DNA of 64,000 nucleotides from Asaia bogorensis (GTDB lineage: Bacteria > Pseudomonadota > Alphaproteobacteria > Acetobacterales > Acetobacteraceae), in NCBI GenBank assembly GCA_945868845.1, contig CAMBMS010000013.1:1-64000 (forward strand), read 5' to 3'. The position numbers were made by a program, and so were the translations under genes. The notes beneath the pieces were generated by a model. It did no database searches, was not told the origin of the DNA, and saw nothing but the letters and a program-made list of their open reading frames with translations. Below, one piece after another: positions 41,733 to 48,467 of the stretch (within the stretch, counting starts at the first letter, position 1; each line of letters starts with the position of its first letter).

Positions 41733-42234
41733 ATGCGCGTACGTCGATGATTGCCCGATAACTGTGGCATCTCTGCATCAATGCGGCATTTTTTTCGGAG
41801 ATTCGTATTTTTTGAATCGCTTTTTGTTGACACGTGTATGCCCGACACGGAATAGCGGAATTGTCATACATCCATCGATTCGCGGCATCGAGTTGTTCGT
41901 CGCTGTATGTGTGCGCCAAACATGGAGGATGATCCATGGACCGCAGCCTTGATCTGGTAAGGTCCATCCGCTTATGCCGTGTGGCGGACAGCGGGTCGGA
42001 CCAGATGAAAGTCGCGACATGGCCAAGCAAGCCCGTCGCAGCCATCCATCGCTTGCCTGAGCCGACGCGGACGCGGCGTGTGGAGACATTGCGCCTCCAT
42101 GGCAGACCTTATGGCGAGTTGACCCCAATCCAGGCCATGTCAGCAGGATGGGACCGGTGCGGAAAGCTACTCGTGTCGGGCAACGCGTTATCCACGTTTT
42201 CTACTCACAGACAGACAAACAGGAGTTGTTAAAC
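41733..42234. other. Long upstream region of the H1-like gene, no supportable protein gene
   Basis: 500 bases between two strong terminators' transcription units. Several short frames lack family features. A TTGACA hexamer at about 41828-41833 followed by the inverted arms CGTGT/ACACG could be part of a promoter with an overlapping operator, but the -10 is poor. The stretch may hold a long 5' leader. Confidence 0.4.
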
Positions 42235-42420
42235 ATGACTGACGAAACCAAGGTCGACACGACCACCGAAGAACAGCGCGCCCAGCCGATGGCGATGCGT
42301 GCGGGTGGCCGCAAGGCCGCCAAGAAGGCTCCGGCCAAGAAAGCCGCCAAGAAGGCAGCTCCGAAGAAGGCCGCTAAGAAAGCCGCCAAGAAGGCAGCTC
42401 CGAAGAAGGCCGCCAAGTAG
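42235..42420 (+). CDS. Small Lys/Ala-rich histone H1-like protein
   Basis: 61 aa from the ATG at 42235, with AGGAG nine bases upstream. The first 24 residues are acidic and polar (M-T-D-E-T-K-V-D-T-T-T-E-E); the rest is made of K-K-A-A and A-P-K-K-A-A-K repeats, the composition of eukaryotic H1 tails and of bacterial H1-like nucleoid proteins such as HctB. Expected to bind DNA non-specifically in the nucleoid. At nucleotide level the repeats are near-identical (AAGAAGGC units), so length may vary between strains. A strong terminator follows. Confidence 0.85.
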   Translation: MTDETKVDTTTEEQRAQPMAMRAGGRKAAKKAPAKKAAKKAAPKKAAKKAAKKAAPKKAAK

Positions 42421-42517: not shown

Positions 42518-43150
42518 CTACCCAAACGTAGCCAACAGATCATCGACCTGCCGACCAGTTAGCAGGCGTGGCGCGGTGCCTCGCAGCAGTAAAAATAGCT
42601 TAGCCGCCTCCTCCAGCTCCTCGGCCGCATACACGGCATCCGTCAGCGTCTTGCCCGATACCACCGGCCCATGGTTAGCCAGCAATACGGCTCGGGCATC
42701 GCGTGCCGCTAAATGGATAGCTGGCTCCATCGCTGGATCGCCCGGCCGGTAATACGGCACGATTGGCATGCGCCGTCCCACCCGCATGACAAAATAGGGC
42801 GTTAGAGGCGGAATCGGATTCTCGACATCGACGTCTGGCAGGCAGGACACCGCCACTGCCATCGTCGAATGCAGATGCACCACGGCTCCTGCCTCCTCCC
42901 GTGCCTGATAAAACGCCCGGTGCATGAACACCTCCTTCGACGGCGCATCTCCCCCAACATGGCGAAACGCCGGGTCGAGTTTGGAAATACGCGCCGGATC
43001 CAATCTCCCAAGGGACGAATTGGTCGGCGTCATCAAATACCCATCCGCCAACCGTGCTGAAATATTGCCCGCGCTACCTACGGAAAATCCGCGGGCAAAC
43101 AACCCGCTAGCCAACTCGCTCAATAGAATCCTCAGCTCGCTCTCACCCAT
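42518..43150 (-). CDS. otnC: 3-oxo-tetronate 4-phosphate decarboxylase (OtnC-like class II aldolase)
   Basis: 210 aa from the ATG at 43150, which overlaps the stop of otnK (TGATG); a GTG one codon earlier is possible. Class II aldolase features: S-A-G-N-I-S-A near 26-32, T-P-T-N-S-S-L-G near 41-48, the K-E-V-F-M-H block near 72, V-V-H-L-H-S-T near 90-96 with the zinc His pair, and A-N-H-G-P near 155. Next to a DUF1537 kinase this is the OtnC arrangement: decarboxylation of 3-dehydrotetronate 4-phosphate to DHAP in threonate/erythronate use. Confidence 0.88.
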   Translation of the reverse strand: MGESELRILLSELASGLFARGFSVGSAGNISARLADGYLMTPTNSSLGRLDPARISKLDPAFRHVGGDAPSKEVFMHRAFYQAREEAGAVVHLHSTMAVAVSCLPDVDVENPIPPLTPYFVMRVGRRMPIVPYYRPGDPAMEPAIHLAARDARAVLLANHGPVVSGKTLTDAVYAAEELEEAAKLFLLLRGTAPRLLTGRQVDDLLATFG

Positions 43151-44406
43151 CACGCAAATGCCTTCAGAAAGAAATCCGGGGCGCCGAAGTTACCGGATTT
43201 CAACGCCAGATGCATGGCTGTGCTACCACCCTCAGCATAGGTCCAGGGCACCCCGGGGTCGATTTCTCGCCCGATCCACAACCGTTTCAGTCCCAGCCGA
43301 GACACCACGGCGCCGGAGGTTTCCCCTCCTGCGACCACCAGGCGGCGCACGCCGCTCGCGACCAACGCTTCCGCGATCGCCGCCAAGGCGTCCTCCACCA
43401 ACACCCCCGCCGCATCGCGGCCCAGCTTGGCTTGCAACGCGGCTACTTTCTCGGGCGGTGCCGAACCCGCGATCACCACCGGTACTTTTCCCAACTTCCC
43501 AGCCATCCACGCCTGAGCCCGTGCTGCTAATGCCGCCGCATCCGGCATTGCCAACACGTCCAATTCTAAGGTCGGCACACGTTCCCGTGCCGTGGCAATC
43601 TGAAACAACGTCGCGCGAGAGCAAGAGCCGGCGAGAACCGCCGCCGCGCCTGTCATCGGCGGCAGTAAGGCTGAATCTTGCCGCGCCGCCAACAGCCCGG
43701 CCCGGCGGAAGTTCTCGGGCAATCCCATTGCCACTCCTGATCCGCCCGTGATCAACGCATGGCCTGACGCTGCTTCCCCGATCGCCACCAAATGCTGGTC
43801 GGAGACCGCGTCGACGATGGCATAACGCCGTCCCTGCTCCTTCAAACCTGTCATTGCCTTGCGGATCGCCTGCGCGCCCTGCTCGACGGCGGCGAAATTC
43901 ACGAGCCCCACCGTGCCGTCGGTCTGCCGCGACAGCACGCGCACCAAATTTGCATCTGTCATCGGCGTCAGCGGATGGTTCTCCATCCCGCTTTCGTTCA
44001 GCAGTACTGATCCGGCAAACAAATAGCCCTGGTAGACACTACGCCCATTCGCCGGAAATGCGGGACAGGCCAGGGCAAATCCGCACCCCAGCGCCCGCAC
44101 CAGCGCGTCCGCCACCGGCCCGATATTGCCTGCGTCGGTACTGTCAAACGTCGAACAGTACTTAAAAAAGAACTGCCGGCATCCCGCCGCGGACAACCAC
44201 TGCAACGCCGCAAGGCTCTCCGCCACCGCCTGGCTCACGGGGGCGGTGCGCGATTTCAGCGCCACCACCACCGCATCGACGTCCGGCACCGGATCGCCGG
44301 CACCCGGCACTCCGATTAACTGTACCGTCCGCATGCCATTCTTCACCAGCATGGAAGCCAGATCGGTCGCCCCGGTGAAATCGTCTGCGATGCAACCCAA
44401 CAGCAT
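43150..44406 (-). CDS. otnK: 3-oxo-tetronate kinase (OtnK, DUF1537 family)
   Basis: 418 aa from the ATG at 44406, where the family N-terminus L-L-G-C-I-A-D-D-F-T-G-A-T-D starts. Other hallmarks: K-Y-C-S-T-F-D-S-T near 82-90, C-P-A-F-P-A-N-G-R near 112-120, the second-domain V-L-A-G-S-C-S near 255 and the C-terminal V-A-G-G-E-T-S-G-A-V. Phosphorylates 3-oxotetronates with ATP before OtnC. The dehydrogenase and the isomerase OtnI of the pathway are not adjacent, so the cluster is incomplete here. Confidence 0.92.
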   Translation of the reverse strand: MLLGCIADDFTGATDLASMLVKNGMRTVQLIGVPGAGDPVPDVDAVVVALKSRTAPVSQAVAESLAALQWLSAAGCRQFFFKYCSTFDSTDAGNIGPVADALVRALGCGFALACPAFPANGRSVYQGYLFAGSVLLNESGMENHPLTPMTDANLVRVLSRQTDGTVGLVNFAAVEQGAQAIRKAMTGLKEQGRRYAIVDAVSDQHLVAIGEAASGHALITGGSGVAMGLPENFRRAGLLAARQDSALLPPMTGAAAVLAGSCSRATLFQIATARERVPTLELDVLAMPDAAALAARAQAWMAGKLGKVPVVIAGSAPPEKVAALQAKLGRDAAGVLVEDALAAIAEALVASGVRRLVVAGGETSGAVVSRLGLKRLWIGREIDPGVPWTYAEGGSTAMHLALKSGNFGAPDFFLKAFA

Positions 44407-44477: not shown

Positions 44478-45332
44478 TTATCCCGGCAGCGCGAGAATAT
44501 CGCGATGCCCAATCCGCACAGCCAGCCGCAAATCCATTGCCTGTGCATGCCGCGCCTCGCGCCAATCTGCCAATATACGCCGCTTGGCCGGCAGCGCCGC
44601 GCCCGCCGCGCTCTCCGCACCTGAAATCAGCGCATCGAGCATCGTCAGGGCCGTGCGCGGCACCACCCAGTCGGACGGTGCCGAAGCCACGTGAAATCCA
44701 ACGGCGGAGAACGTGCGTACCGCTGCCGCGGCCGCCCCCGGTCCCAATGCCCGCCCGAACCCCTTGTCTCGCCCCTGATCGCGATGAAATCCCACCCGCA
44801 TCACGGCGTCCAGCGGATGAAACGGCAACCAGCCGTCCCGTCCATCCACGCTCAACGCCGCATAGAACGGCACGCGCAACGCAGCCGCCAAGCGTTCGAT
44901 CCACCCGCCTGAGACCAGATCCAGCAACGCCGAGCACACCACCGCATCAACGTCGCGAAGCGGCAATTCGCCGGGCATGGCAGACAGGTCGTGCAGTTCC
45001 CCATCCAGCCCCCAATCGCCGTCCGGTGAATGAATGGTTAGCGTGCTATTATTGCTACTGATGCGATACCCTAGAGCATCCGCCCAGGAAGCCGTCACAT
45101 TGAACGCCTCGTCCAGCAACGCCGGATCCGCGTCGATGAATGTCCAGGACTGCGCGCCGCCGATGATCGGCGCCAAATAACGAAACAGGCTACCCGTTCC
45201 CGCCCCCAGATCGATTAGCCAGGGTTTTACTGGCAACGTCCCCACGAACCGCATCGCCAGGGCGCGGTTGCGCGCCGCATGGTCGAACGGTTCACGCATT
45301 GCCAACCACGCGGTATCGAAATTTTCGCTCAC
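44478..45332 (-). CDS. Class I SAM-dependent methyltransferase (pterin-type operon)
   Basis: 284 aa. SAM-binding motif I as I-D-L-G-A-G-T-G-S near 40-48, an acidic F-I-D-A-D-P near 65-70 at the end of strand two, and a V-D-A-V-V-C-S-A-L-L-D-L block near 127-138 in place of motif IV. The C-terminal third is not familiar. It is the last gene of a tight five-gene operon (overlap of four bases with the upstream glycosyltransferase). Position suggests late tailoring of whatever the operon makes; O-, N- or C-methylation cannot be told apart. Confidence 0.85.
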   Translation of the reverse strand: MSENFDTAWLAMREPFDHAARNRALAMRFVGTLPVKPWLIDLGAGTGSLFRYLAPIIGGAQSWTFIDADPALLDEAFNVTASWADALGYRISSNNSTLTIHSPDGDWGLDGELHDLSAMPGELPLRDVDAVVCSALLDLVSGGWIERLAAALRVPFYAALSVDGRDGWLPFHPLDAVMRVGFHRDQGRDKGFGRALGPGAAAAAVRTFSAVGFHVASAPSDWVVPRTALTMLDALISGAESAAGAALPAKRRILADWREARHAQAMDLRLAVRIGHRDILALPG

Positions 45333-46357
45333 GTCAGTGCCGCCGCGAAGCCTTTCACCTGGTCATCCCAGGACGGCAGGGCCTGCCCCGCCTGCCAAGC
45401 ATTCTCCGCCAGATATTCGCGGAGCTCGCGCCCGAAAATGAGCCGCCGCAACGCCTTGGACAATTGCTCGACATCACCCACCGGGCAAATTACCCCGGCT
45501 TCGGCCGGCACCAAAGACCCGACCGCGCCACCTGCCGTCACCGCCACCGTAACGCCTCGCTTCAGCGCCTCCGCGATCGCCATGCCATAGCCTTCATACT
45601 GTGTTGCTAGGGCAAAGATATCTGTCTCCCGCCACAAAGCTTCCAACGCCTCATCCACCATTTCGCCGGCAAAGCGTACGCGACCGGAAATGCCTAACGC
45701 CTCGGCCAACGTTGCCAATCTGTGCGCATGCATGGGATCACGCTCTGCCGAACCCACGATAGTCAACCGCCACTCCATATCCGCCAGCCGCGCCAGCGCA
45801 CTTAGCAGCACGTCATGGCCCTTACGCGGCACCAAGGTGCCGATGCTCAGCAGCCGGCACATGCCATCGGTCGAGCCATGATAGCGCGGGGCATCCTCGG
45901 TCCCCGGCACGACCACGGCAATCCGGTGATGACGCACGTCAAACTGCGCCACCAGCCGTTCGGCGGTGGATTCGGACGTGACGACCACGCGCGTCAGCAG
46001 TGGCATCAGCCGGCGTTCAACGGCTTGCAGCCATAAGCGTGCATCCTCGGTAAAGCCGGTTTCCAGTGCCGTCGGGTGATGGATCAGGCCAATGCTCGCC
46101 CGCGCGTTCAACGCCACATCGTCAAACGCCGGTAACGCCAACCCATCGATGATCGGTATTTCGTCGACTGCCAATCTGGCCCAGGCGGACGCTGCCGCGC
46201 CTCGCGCCACATCATCGGCCAGCGGATATTGCCCGGCCAGAGCGACCACACGCACCGCATGCCCCGCCGCGCGCAACCCTGACACCATCCGCCGGTCATA
46301 CGCGTAACCGCCAGAGACCGCATCGAACGGTCCTGGCACCATAAATGCCAGCCGCAC
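45329..46357 (-). CDS. Glycosyltransferase family 4 protein
   Basis: 342 aa, GT-B fold. The N-terminal G-G-Y-A-Y-D-R-R near 17-24 is the acceptor-side glycine loop, the linker holds V-P-G-T-E-D near 145-150, L-L-S-I-G-T-L-V-P-R-K-G-H near 165-177 and the donor-site acidic pair within Y-E-G-Y-G-M-A-I-A-E-A near 255-265 (E-x7-E). No signal or membrane segment. It overlaps both neighbours by 1-4 bases. Unlike most GT4 genes it is not in a polysaccharide locus but between a PTPS homologue and a methyltransferase, so a small-molecule acceptor is likely (inference). Confidence 0.9.
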   Translation of the reverse strand: MRLAFMVPGPFDAVSGGYAYDRRMVSGLRAAGHAVRVVALAGQYPLADDVARGAAASAWARLAVDEIPIIDGLALPAFDDVALNARASIGLIHHPTALETGFTEDARLWLQAVERRLMPLLTRVVVTSESTAERLVAQFDVRHHRIAVVVPGTEDAPRYHGSTDGMCRLLSIGTLVPRKGHDVLLSALARLADMEWRLTIVGSAERDPMHAHRLATLAEALGISGRVRFAGEMVDEALEALWRETDIFALATQYEGYGMAIAEALKRGVTVAVTAGGAVGSLVPAEAGVICPVGDVEQLSKALRRLIFGRELREYLAENAWQAGQALPSWDDQVKGFAAALT

Positions 46358-46764
46358 TAACCGAGCGGCCCTTCAAACGCCGCCCACGCCGTCGGTGCCT
46401 CGCGCATCACGATCTTGATCGCCGCGAGCTTTCGGCCCGCCTCGCCCAACCGCCCCGCGTGGCAGGCGGCGGCGAGCAGAGAGTGCACATGGAAAGCCAT
46501 GAACTCGGTCGTCGTATTGGTCCCTTTGAATAGCGGGTTCTCGTCCAGGTTGGAATAATCGACGCTGCCCAGCAATTCCCGCAACACGGTCTTTGCTAGG
46601 CCGATATCGATCAGCAGTTGCAGGTGGTCCAACGTCGCGGCACGAAACTCCGCCTCCACCGCATAGGTCGCGCCATGCATGCGCTGCGCCAGGCCGAATT
46701 CTTTCCCGTGAAAACTATGAGCGATCATGATGTGGTCGCAGACGGTGAGGCTGTACATTTTCAT
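46357..46764 (-). CDS. Divergent 6-pyruvoyl-tetrahydropterin synthase/QueD family protein
   Basis: 135 aa, T-fold size. The alignment to QueD/PTPS is clear at H16 (A-H-S-F), H30 (M-H-G-A-T-Y), D53 in L-I-D-I-G-L-A, L-D-E-N-P near 73-77, T-T-T-E-F near 84-88 and R-E-A-P-T-A-W near 121-127. But the zinc ligand of the usual H-G-H motif is alanine (A32) and the catalytic Cys four residues before the first His is also alanine (A26). It therefore probably does not run the standard QueD or PTPS chemistry. It keeps the late Glu residues that anchor the pterin ring. Third gene of the operon. Confidence 0.87.
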   Translation of the reverse strand: MKMYSLTVCDHIMIAHSFHGKEFGLAQRMHGATYAVEAEFRAATLDHLQLLIDIGLAKTVLRELLGSVDYSNLDENPLFKGTNTTTEFMAFHVHSLLAAACHAGRLGEAGRKLAAIKIVMREAPTAWAAFEGPLG

Positions 46765-47709
46765 TCAGCTTCCATAGGTGATGACATGGCAGAGCCCGCC
46801 GGCAAGCAAGCGCGGCATCTCCGCCGGCATATCTTTGAACGCCACCCGCGTATCCAGCAACAGATCGAACACAGGATCGCCCAGTAGTTCCAGCGCCGTT
46901 GCCAGCCGATCCGCATAGGCCCGCCGCCCGCGCATGGCCGGGGAGATTGCGCCCACTTGTGTTGCCACGATCCGCAACCGCCGGGCATGAAACGTTTCGC
47001 CCAGGGGCAGGGTAGGGGCCTGGTCCCCGAACCAGCTCGCCTCCACGATCCGCGCCTCGAAGGCGGCCTGCGCCAGCGCCAACCGCAATCCGCCTTCGGA
47101 CGCGGAGGCATGCACGATCAGTTCCTGTTCCGCCGGCGCCGCATCCGGCAAGGCAAACGCACAGCCCAGCCGCAGCGCCAGAGCCTCCCGCGCGGGATTG
47201 ATATCCACCAATGTGACTTTCGTCGCAGGAATGCGCGCGCACAACGCCGCGGTCAGCACTCCTACCACCCCCGCGCCAATGATAAGAATTCGTTCGCCGG
47301 CGAGTGGGGCGGCATCCCATAAAATATTCAGCGCCGTCTCCATATTCGCCGTCAGCACTGCCCGCTCCGTCGACACCGCGTCGGGAACCGGTATGCACAT
47401 CGCTTCCGGCGCATCGAAAACATCCTGATGTGGGTGCAGCGCAAACACACGCTGCAATTCCGCCGTTAGCCCCACGGCGCTGTAGCCATACTTAACGGGA
47501 AAGGGGAATTCCCCCCCCATCAACGGCGCCCGCATGACTGCGAACTGGCTCTTTGGCACCCGCCCGGCAAACACCAGCGATTCGGTTCCGCGTGAGATCC
47601 CCGTCGCCAAAGTTCGAACGCGCACTTGCCCCGGCTGCGGCCACAGGATTTCCGTACGGATTTCCCCGCGCCCCGCGCCCACCGTCCAAAAAGCGTGCGC
47701 GTTGCTCAT
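46765..47709 (-). CDS. MDR-family dehydrogenase lacking zinc ligands
   Basis: 314 aa, short for an MDR enzyme because the structural zinc loop is absent. The usual catalytic Cys position reads G-I-S-R-G-T-E near 38-42 (S39) and the G-H-E motif reads G-Y-S near 75-77, so no zinc site remains. The Rossmann motif G-A-G-V-V-G is near 147-152 and an acidic V-D-I-N-P follows. NAD(P)-dependent reduction or oxidation without zinc, as in quinone reductase-like and BchC-like proteins, is likely. Sits between the RibD-type reductase and the PTPS homologue with no gap. Confidence 0.85.
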   Translation of the reverse strand: MSNAHAFWTVGAGRGEIRTEILWPQPGQVRVRTLATGISRGTESLVFAGRVPKSQFAVMRAPLMGGEFPFPVKYGYSAVGLTAELQRVFALHPHQDVFDAPEAMCIPVPDAVSTERAVLTANMETALNILWDAAPLAGERILIIGAGVVGVLTAALCARIPATKVTLVDINPAREALALRLGCAFALPDAAPAEQELIVHASASEGGLRLALAQAAFEARIVEASWFGDQAPTLPLGETFHARRLRIVATQVGAISPAMRGRRAYADRLATALELLGDPVFDLLLDTRVAFKDMPAEMPRLLAGGLCHVITYGS

Positions 47710-48467
47710 CAGTTAGCAATCGGCGCGACGCGACGGAGCGGGATATCGAGCAGGATATCCGGTGCCATCGGATGCACGGTCCAATCGAACCGCAAACCAT
47801 CTGCCGGCACCAAGGCGGGCCGCAACGTAAACGCCGGCACTCCGCCGCCCAGCAGCAAAGGCGCCACCGTCACATGCAGCCGGTCCAGCATCTCCGCCAC
47901 CAGGAATCGCGATATCGTGACGCCACCTCCCTCGATAAGTATCCGTCGCAGCCCGCGCGCCGCCAGCGCCGTCAGCAATGCCGCAGGGTCCAGTCCTTCG
48001 CCGGACCGTGGCAATCGCACCACCTGGGCCGCGCCTAAATAATCCGGCCCCTCGCTGTCGGCGGCCGTGCACAACAAGGCCGGCGGCCCAACCTGGAAAA
48101 CCTTGTAGCGCTCGCCCAGTCGCCGGTTCGTATCGATGACCACCCGTACCGGCGACGGTCCCACCACTAGCCGCGTGTTCAATTGTGGGTCGTCGGCCCG
48201 CACCGTACCCGCGCCCACGACAATCGCATCGAACAGCGCGCGCAGCCGATGCGTATGCTCAAGTTCTGCCTGCCCCGAAATCCAGCGTGAGGCCCCGGAC
48301 TCGGTAGCGATTCGTCCGTCCAGCGATTGCGCCAGCCGTCCCAGCACTAGGCAGCCATCTGCCACGGCTGAAGCCCGCAATAATGGCCCGTAGAGTGGGC
48401 AAGCTTCCCCATCCGCCGCTTCGCGGCGTAGCAGGCGCTGCCATAAAATCTCGTCCAACTGCACCAT
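47709..48467 (-). CDS. RibD C-terminal-domain reductase (dihydrofolate-reductase-like)
   Basis: 252 aa. Only the reductase half of RibD is present: L-A-Q-S-L-D-G-R-I-A near 45-54, G-A-G-T-V-R-A-D-D-P-Q-L near 86-97, and the glycine-rich I-L-I-E-G-G-G near 175-181 that binds NADPH phosphates. The zinc deaminase domain of RibD is missing; the first 40 residues are a different short leader. Members reduce riboflavin- or pterin-like intermediates. It is the first gene of the five-gene operon, and its stop overlaps the next start by one base. Confidence 0.88.
   Translation of the reverse strand: MVQLDEILWQRLLRREAADGEACPLYGPLLRASAVADGCLVLGRLAQSLDGRIATESGASRWISGQAELEHTHRLRALFDAIVVGAGTVRADDPQLNTRLVVGPSPVRVVIDTNRRLGERYKVFQVGPPALLCTAADSEGPDYLGAAQVVRLPRSGEGLDPAALLTALAARGLRRILIEGGGVTISRFLVAEMLDRLHVTVAPLLLGGGVPAFTLRPALVPADGLRFDWTVHPMAPDILLDIPLRRVAPIAN

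Follow-up and report, generated by a model that had tools for sequence, protein, structure and literature searches.

What product does the five-gene operon at positions 48467-44478 (minus strand) of an Asaia bogorensis contig make? The operon lies in a 64,000-nt stretch (GCA_945868845.1, contig CAMBMS010000013.1; the whole stretch is called the window below) and encodes, in order, a stand-alone RibD-C reductase, a zinc-less medium-chain dehydrogenase/reductase (MDR), a T-fold protein resembling 6-pyruvoyltetrahydropterin synthase (PTPS), a family 4 glycosyltransferase (GT4) and a class I S-adenosylmethionine (SAM)-dependent methyltransferase. Our preferred answer, held with slightly better than even confidence, is that these genes form the core of a dedicated pathway from GTP to a glycosylated, methylated pterin-like compound by a riboflavin-type pyrimidine route. 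The parts appear to be of known kinds, and the pathway and its product appear to be unassigned. A literature search, whose coverage left out most subscription papers, found no product or account of the five-gene cluster; the terms ‘gene cluster’, ‘GTP cyclohydrolase II’, ‘Streptomyces’ and ‘6-pyruvoyl’ do not occur in the accessible text of a 2026 review on bacterial pterin signalling (PMC13259868). A pathway conserved this broadly would imply that a cofactor or envelope molecule has been overlooked so far, and comparison of the clusters yields candidate starting substrates, a step order and laboratory organisms for testing.

The gene set is no local accident. A first-pass annotation of the window had supposed that the five products act in sequence, and the genes co-occurred strongly in all four samples of loci. 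Among 100 related genomes, 32 (the window's own included) carried the PTPS-like gene; the 20 loci fetched from the 31 non-own matches had MDR in 20 cases, RibD-C in 19, GT4 in 19 and the methyltransferase in 15. The named-genome set, i.e. the best 80 of 585 named loci, leans to the window's own family; MDR was present in 78 of the 80, GT4 in 76, RibD-C in 66 and the methyltransferase in 64, and 35 loci had the exact gene order of the window. An even draw of Pseudomonadota had the PTPS-like gene in 32 of 397 genomes at E <= 1e-15 (again counting the window's genome). Thirty loci were fetched of the 31 non-own matches (the remaining one, G086, is locus L050) and contained MDR (30), GT4 (29), RibD-C (27) and the methyltransferase (22). 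An even draw of the actinobacterial phylum gave 30 matches in 296 genomes, ordinary QueDs among them; 20 loci were fetched, eight with strong and 12 with weak matches. The strong loci had MDR (8), GT4 (8) and the methyltransferase (7); ten of the weak ones reproduced the window's order for RibD-C, MDR, PTPS and GT4, and the remaining two were ordinary QueD loci.

The control consisted of 20 displaced stretches of equal length taken elsewhere in 20 cassette-bearing genomes. No core or partner family queried was found in any of the 20, except for ABC transporters in four; since the core families were absent from all displaced stretches, the set occurs together beyond chance. Pairwise protein distances of MDR, PTPS, GT4 and RibD-C were correlated over 100 loci (r 0.80-0.90; the highest of 200 permutations was 0.22). 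Two ordinary QueD loci (L265 and L266) were left out of the pooled distance and partner counts and kept in the RibA-residue count; one genome is present in two pooled sets (as L111 and L187).

Thus, homologues did not occur only singly. On two Streptomyces plasmids (L135 and L140), by their annotation, the PTPS-like gene has none of its usual partners and stands among cupin, metallo-β-lactamase (MBL)-fold, sigma-70 and BTAD regulator genes; a second use of the fold is possible for these solitary genes. Another two loci (L075 and L089, among the best 80 of 585 named) have PTPS and GT4 without MDR. The first-pass annotation mentioned similar sets in other alphaproteobacteria; the set does recur, and it is not confined there, as it is found in Actinobacteria and haloarchaea hold related clusters.

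The five open reading frames (ORFs) were read directly from the sequence in the order RibD-C, MDR, PTPS-like, GT4, methyltransferase. The RibD-C and MDR genes overlap by one base, the MDR and PTPS-like genes abut (gap 0), the PTPS-like and GT4 genes overlap by one base and the GT4 and methyltransferase genes by four, in agreement with the earlier account of their place, strand and spacing (-4 to 0 bp). RibD_C, PTPS and Glycos_transf_1 matches were above the Pfam gathering scores; those of the MDR and the methyltransferase were below theirs. An Rfam scan of the window gave two matches, both tRNAs outside the operon.

The first gene (47709..48467, minus strand, 252 residues; PF01872, 4.6e-40) has RibD_C as the sole domain detected by Pfam, so the deaminase domain is missing, as had been claimed. 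Its score against the bifunctional RibD model TIGR00326 (113.2 bits) is below the cut-off of 156.35. The protein shares the motifs SLDG, TxxxDxPxLxxR and EGG with Bacillus subtilis RibG (2b3z); these count as the substrate and NADPH motifs of the family.

The second gene (46765..47709, minus strand, 314 residues) was assigned from NCBIfam matches, all of them weak and sub-cut-off (L-threonine dehydrogenase; BchC, 1.7e-7), and from its predicted fold. The earlier description of this MDR as zinc-less holds: it scored 16.4 bits against ADH_zinc_N (gathering score 31.8) and has SRGTE at what we take to be the position of the usual catalytic zinc Cys. The motifs SxGTE, PHQ and HxxR are invariant. 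AlphaFold models of the MDR and the methyltransferase were built from alignments and compared with solved structures. The MDR fold is confident (predicted local distance difference test, pLDDT, 90.7), and the nearest structures were GutB (Z 30.4, root-mean-square deviation [rmsd] 2.3 over 288 residues), L-idonate dehydrogenase (Z 29.9) and xylitol dehydrogenase (Z 29.7), these three spanning rmsd 2.1-2.3 with 285-288 aligned residues; sorbitol dehydrogenases were also among the nearest, and TarJ (6xh9) matched with Z 27.8 (rmsd 2.3, 278 aligned). Likeness of the predicted fold to polyol dehydrogenases or TarJ is no proof of function.

The fourth gene (45329..46357, minus strand, 342 residues, GTG start) encodes the GT4 (PF00534, Glycos_transf_1, 1.8e-28) and has the E-x7-E motif; of the 77 GT4s scoring >150 bits in the 80-locus set, 75 have this motif within their last 200 residues. 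The fifth gene (44478..45332, minus strand, 284 residues, GTG start) was identified by predicted fold, its Pfam match to Methyltransf_25 being sub-threshold. The model (pLDDT 95.3) has the class I Rossmann-like SAM fold, with 3mgg_B as the best match (Z 20.1, rmsd 3.0, 236 aligned); the structure matches of this model point to no substrate.

The third gene (46357..46764, minus strand, 135 residues; PF01242, 7.1e-20) deserves separate treatment. Among PDB entries it matches 3d7j best, the structure of SCO6650 from Streptomyces coelicolor (9.3e-37, 49% identity over 130 residues). A SCO6650-type profile matched it at 1.3e-63, a value that is partly by construction as SCO6650 is one of the 16 rows of the profile. 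Ala occupies the position of the catalytic Cys (A26) and that of the third zinc His (A32), both invariant in all 16 aligned members, so the two substitutions named in the first-pass annotation are confirmed. By alignment, a third changed position, which that annotation missed, is seen in the catalytic triad: the His of DHxNLD appears as Tyr70, invariant in 16/16, and is His in the PDB relatives 2g64, 3i2b and 1b66. Retained and invariant in the 16-row alignment are the zinc ligands H16 and H30, the TTE motif (T84, T86, E87) and the C-terminal Glu (E122); the TTE motif and this Glu are presumably pterin-binding residues. Spoonamore et al. reportedly found in 2006 and 2008 that SCO6650 has no zinc and no PTPS activity and keeps the pterin site.

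In ten divergent actinobacterial cassettes (L255-L264) the PTPS-like protein keeps HGH and has Ala at the Cys place, perhaps a version closer to the ancestral state; two haloarchaeal members have Glu at the Cys place and an HSHHY motif. In the PTPS-like sequences aligned here, the Cys is missing throughout, whereas the zinc site has been lost in only a part of them. PMC5041015 distinguishes PTPS-I to VI, regards PTPS-V as unclear and relates PTPS-IV to F420, citing unpublished work.

Could the gene be an ordinary QueD or folate PTPS caught in a chance operon? The family (PF01242) would allow it, and nine annotated plasmid loci label the PTPS-like gene ‘6-carboxytetrahydropterin synthase’. We think that this can hardly be the case and rejected such a role: all 16 aligned members have substitutions at the catalytic Cys, at one zinc His and at the triad His, the protein scores 37.2 bits against the QueD model (cut-off 89.25), QueC is represented in the window genome by partial matches alone (at most 119 of 210 positions), and the core was absent from all 20 displaced controls. 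The window genome has one PTPS gene in all. The comparison of clusters argues against the routine queuosine label for this family.

What is the substrate? GTP-opening enzymes of the riboflavin-type route, of differing kinds, recur at the set. RibA was near the cassette in 13 of 30 Pseudomonadota loci, 11 of the best 80 of 585 named loci and seven of the eight strong actinobacterial loci, and it stands beside the cassette on Streptomyces, Palleronia and Agrobacterium plasmids. FolE, searched with a single query, was near it in one of the best 80 of 585 named loci and in 0/30, 0/8 and 0/12 loci of the other sets, and a FolE-fed pterin route was rejected, as FolE adjoins the cassette in one of 130 scanned loci. 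A GTP-derived substrate, as proposed in the first-pass annotation, is supported because GTP cyclohydrolases adjoin the set in relatives; the entry looks to be of the GTP cyclohydrolase (GCH) II, riboflavin type and not of the FolE type.

The cluster RibAs form two editions: those with Tyr at the position of Escherichia coli Tyr105 go with RibD-C, and those with Met or His there go with a creatininase, without RibD-C. The Tyr type was accompanied by a RibD-C match in 25/25 cases (among them two ordinary QueD loci, whose RibD-C matches were weak), and the Met/His type by a creatininase without RibD-C in 9/9, the Streptomyces fungicidicus locus (L133) making a tenth. All ten Met/His loci are actinobacterial (by title or sample), so shared descent contributes. 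No other reductase recurred among 14 actinobacterial loci. A residue other than Tyr at this position of GCH II has been linked to production of the formylated pyrimidine FAPy, and SCO6655 of S. coelicolor (Met120) reportedly yields FAPy, according to Spoonamore et al. The creatininase-family protein BrbF of Sinorhizobium meliloti deformylates FAPy to the 2,5-diamino compound, as described in the accessible part of PMC9478397.

In the window genome, matches to GTP_cyclohydro2, other RibD_C proteins, FolE, creatininase and, in part, QueC are all on contigs other than that of the window (C13), which agrees with the earlier remark that no queuosine, folate or riboflavin genes are adjacent. The two FolE (GTP cyclohydrolase I) genes are at G000:C39:2301-2834 and G000:C27:19466-20002. 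The sole intact GCH II is a RibA on contig C2 (L149), with Tyr at the 105 position and so not of the FAPy type at this residue. On contig C3, a RibBA (L150, 7002-8129), whose RibA half has no zinc Cys residues, stands beside a RibD_C protein, an arrangement that we take to be RibBX-like. A dedicated second RibA was rejected for this genome, as the RibA half of RibBA has lost its zinc Cys residues; the C2 RibA is probably shared between the cluster pathway and riboflavin synthesis.

The RibBA defect, together with the retained RibD-C family motifs, could also suggest that the cluster is an alternative supply of riboflavin precursor, with its RibD-C backing up RibD. We consider this highly improbable. 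The genome has an intact RibA and a second RibD_C protein beside RibBA, for which reason RibD-C as a riboflavin back-up only was rejected, and such a role leaves the MDR, the PTPS-like protein, GT4 and the methyltransferase unexplained.

Partner genes suggest where the product goes. In 94 long loci (one genome counted twice), a CDP-alcohol phosphatidyltransferase and a flippase-like gene were both present in 32, one alone in 2 + 1 and neither in 59. The flippase-like family is LPG_synthase_TM, and the CDP-alcohol partner has weak PgsA-like assignments. We read the pair as a membrane module added onto the common core; the product may become lipid-linked in many lineages. Neither gene was found in the window's cluster or in the 52 loci most like it (L052-L103, within the best 80 of 585 named loci). 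The three CDP-alcohol transferases of the window genome match the cluster type at <= 34.3 bits, and presence of a cluster-type enzyme elsewhere in the genome was rejected. An MdoH-like glucan glucosyltransferase gene was near the cassette in 12 of 30 Pseudomonadota loci (L190-L192, L195, L197, L202-L204, L209-L212; MdoG in three of these twelve) and in six of the best 80 of 585 named loci; MdoG was found in six of 30 and one of the best 80.

These partners raise the alternative of an envelope pathway, where the heterocycle would be a headgroup or substituent attached to a phospholipid or to periplasmic glucan; GT4, the methyltransferase, the CDP-alcohol transferase, the flippase-like protein and MdoH would together build this envelope glycoconjugate. 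The nearly constant pairing of the two membrane genes (32 loci with both, three with one), the MdoH and MdoG counts and the LPG_synthase_TM and PgsA-like assignments fit it. We still find it decidedly unlikely, since the pair is missing from the window's cluster and its 52 nearest loci, the transferases of the window genome are remote from the cluster type, and the five-gene core is also found where neither the CDP-alcohol nor the flippase-like gene is present.

Other neighbours were less regular. Cytochrome b561 was near the cassette in seven of 30 Pseudomonadota loci. Ten of the 30 had a nearby member of an ORF family represented by a protein with an FkbM methyltransferase domain. An annotated sulfatase (L139, 3205-4791), which stayed below the thresholds applied to Pfam and NCBIfam models, has relatives near cassettes in eight of the best 80 of 585 named and three of 30 Pseudomonadota loci. 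Directly downstream of the operon in the window are what we take to be a DUF1537/OtnK-like kinase ORF (43150-44406, minus strand, ATG at 44406) and, following it, an aldolase-like ORF (42518-43153, minus strand), both names being tentative. Of the 20 related loci, 14 contain a relative of the kinase (15 when the window is counted). A short Lys/Ala-rich ORF with repeats at 42148-42420 presumably resembles bacterial histone H1-like proteins.

The cluster could instead direct synthesis of a specialised metabolite with a ribitylaminopyrimidine, lumazine or pterin skeleton, such as an antimetabolite, pigment or UV screen, and could have spread horizontally. Its patchy occurrence (32 of 397 Pseudomonadota genomes) and the copies on plasmids of Streptomyces, Methylosinus trichosporium OB3b, Agrobacterium and haloarchaea are in favour, as is the link of cyanobacterial pterin glycosides to light protection (PMC13259868, accessible part). 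We judge it improbable: the neighbourhood is conserved across the window's family, which fits long joint inheritance, and so do the correlated gene distances, though transfer of the whole set would give the same correlation.

Related clusters on haloarchaeal plasmids extend the comparison. Of the four stretches examined, that of Haloarcula GH36 has a CDP-alcohol transferase, GTP cyclohydrolase IIa (GCH IIa, GCH_III family), MDR, PTPS and methyltransferase genes consecutively; a GT4 gene lies upstream at a distance of a few kb, on the opposite strand. The H. sinaiiensis stretch has MDR, PTPS, GT4 and a methyltransferase-like ORF, with a CDP-alcohol transferase and a creatininase upstream. GCH IIa adjoins MDR on two of the plasmids, and haloarchaeal and bacterial cluster MDRs are 31-42% identical. 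No RibD-family protein is annotated in the Haloarcula GH36, Natrarchaeobaculum and H. sinaiiensis stretches. The fourth stretch (MDR match L292) was rejected as a cluster, its match being a plain, unrelated zinc dehydrogenase.

The haloarchaeal pairing of MDR with GCH IIa is also compatible with an F420- or flavin-related role, where the PTPS-like protein would belong to the F420-linked PTPS-IV branch; an involvement of PTPS-IV in F420 is reported in the available part of PMC5041015, citing unpublished work. CofD was found above cut-off in the window genome (G000:C3:121216-122118); of the 14 actinobacterial cassette genomes tested, 13 had it as well. Among Pseudomonadota, CofD occurred in two of 32 cassette genomes, the window's being one of the two, and one of the two genes has an internal stop codon. 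On this sequence evidence, the window genome may make F420, unlike 30 of the 31 other cassette-bearing Pseudomonadota; an F420 role as a general explanation is very unlikely and was rejected on the Pseudomonadota count.

How, then, would a GTP-to-pterin-like-glycoside pathway work? We infer substrate, chemical steps, product class and lipid anchoring from gene content, order, conservation, partners, residues and predicted folds. The gene order of the window, taken as the order of steps, suggests reduction, oxidation, pterin formation, glycosylation and methylation. GCH II (here the C2 RibA) would open GTP to 2,5-diamino-6-ribosylamino-4(3H)-pyrimidinone 5'-phosphate, and the stand-alone RibD-C would reduce this ribosylaminopyrimidine phosphate to the ribityl form, prior to any deamination. 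The zinc-less MDR would then oxidise a side-chain hydroxyl (C2' is a guess), and the resulting ketone might condense with the amino group at position 5, which would form a dihydropterin ring independently of FolE; if the MDR ketone closes the ring, RibD-C and MDR would replace the Amadori step of FolE. The PTPS-like protein would bind the pterin and shape its side chain, GT4 would attach a sugar and the methyltransferase a methyl group. In many other lineages, the CDP-alcohol transferase and flippase-like protein probably place the product on a lipid.

Several observations weigh against this pathway. No RibA was found beside the cassette in the window or in any of its 52 nearest loci, and the C2 RibA, as the only intact GCH II of the genome and of the Tyr type, must also serve riboflavin. 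Ten Tyr-type RibA loci (nine proteobacterial, one titled Acidobacteria) have a more distant creatininase, for which the FAPy logic gives no explanation. RibD-C was not found in any of the ten Met/His-RibA loci, in stretches of ~18 kb each; for these loci, the reduction-oxidation idea is wrong unless an orphan RibD-C encoded elsewhere takes part. (PF01872 proteins are numerous in S. coelicolor, according to the available part of PMC1971073.) The methyltransferase was detected in only 22 of 30 Pseudomonadota and 64 of the best 80 of 585 named loci. The assignment ‘pterin’ derives from the fold family and residues of the PTPS-like protein. The MDR is zinc-less, whereas its nearest relatives by fold are mostly zinc enzymes. 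In the Natrarchaeobaculum stretch, GCH IIa and MDR are present and no PTPS, GT4 or methyltransferase is annotated. Finally, GCH IIa serves riboflavin in Haloferax volcanii, where deletion of arfA (HVO_1284) led to riboflavin auxotrophy (PMC8305020, accessible part).

A bolder form of the proposal, which we put forward as speculative and rather unlikely, is that bacteria and haloarchaea share a FolE-independent pterin route. After GCH II or IIa has opened GTP to a pyrimidine, RibD-C would reduce its ribosyl group and MDR would oxidise the ribityl chain again, upon which the ring would close spontaneously; these two enzymes would stand in for the Amadori rearrangement of GTP cyclohydrolase I, and a repurposed PTPS fold would complete the pterin. 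The product would be glycosylated, methylated and, in many lineages, tied to a phospholipid; after transfer across the membrane it would serve as a new membrane-bound redox cofactor or signal.

With QueD and PTPS-I to III (COG0720), the window's PTPS-like protein shares the PF01242 T-fold, the HG and TTE motifs and the C-terminal Glu; it differs in having no Cys of CxxxHGH, HGA for HGH and Tyr for the triad His (canonical motifs are from the available part of PMC5041015). The archaeal and fungal riboflavin route (ArfA, ArfB, ArfC) is similar in its stand-alone RibD-C and, among relatives of the window's cluster, in entry by GCH IIa or RibA and a creatininase-family protein. The cluster differs in going on with an MDR, a PTPS-like protein, GT4 and a methyltransferase, and the creatininase of the S. 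fungicidicus cluster scored 37 bits against the ArfB model (cut-off 180).

Cyanobacterial pterin glycosides are of FolE-derived biosynthesis. One of them, cyanopterin, resembles the proposed product class as a glycosylated pterin (PMC13259868, accessible part). Cyanopterin is known from cyanobacteria, and the likeness is one of product class; a UDP-glucose:tetrahydrobiopterin glucosyltransferase is cited in the same review. Mycofactocin is peptide-derived, and its pathway has a glycosyltransferase and a methyltransferase. It is a glycosylated redox cofactor (PMC7744413, accessible part), made with a creatininase-family protein, MftE (NCBIfam name); two cluster creatininases scored 141 and 147 bits, below the MftE cut-off of 172.

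For the MDR, the weak sequence likeness to BchC (1.7e-7) comes with 30.7 bits against a cut-off of 291.25, so the protein is not a BchC, and TarJ is a match by fold. BchC acts on a secondary alcohol on a large ring and TarJ on ribitol/ribulose 5-phosphate.

Streptomycete clusters offer a further comparison. SCO6650 has the same Ala and Tyr substitutions as the window's PTPS-like protein, and the S. fungicidicus plasmid cluster combines MDR, PTPS, GT4 and methyltransferase genes with those for a CDP-alcohol transferase, a creatininase and RibA. Clusters of the streptomycete type add RibA (Met type), creatininase, CDP-alcohol transferase and flippase-like genes and have no adjacent RibD-C; the window's cluster, in contrast, has RibD-C and none of those additions.

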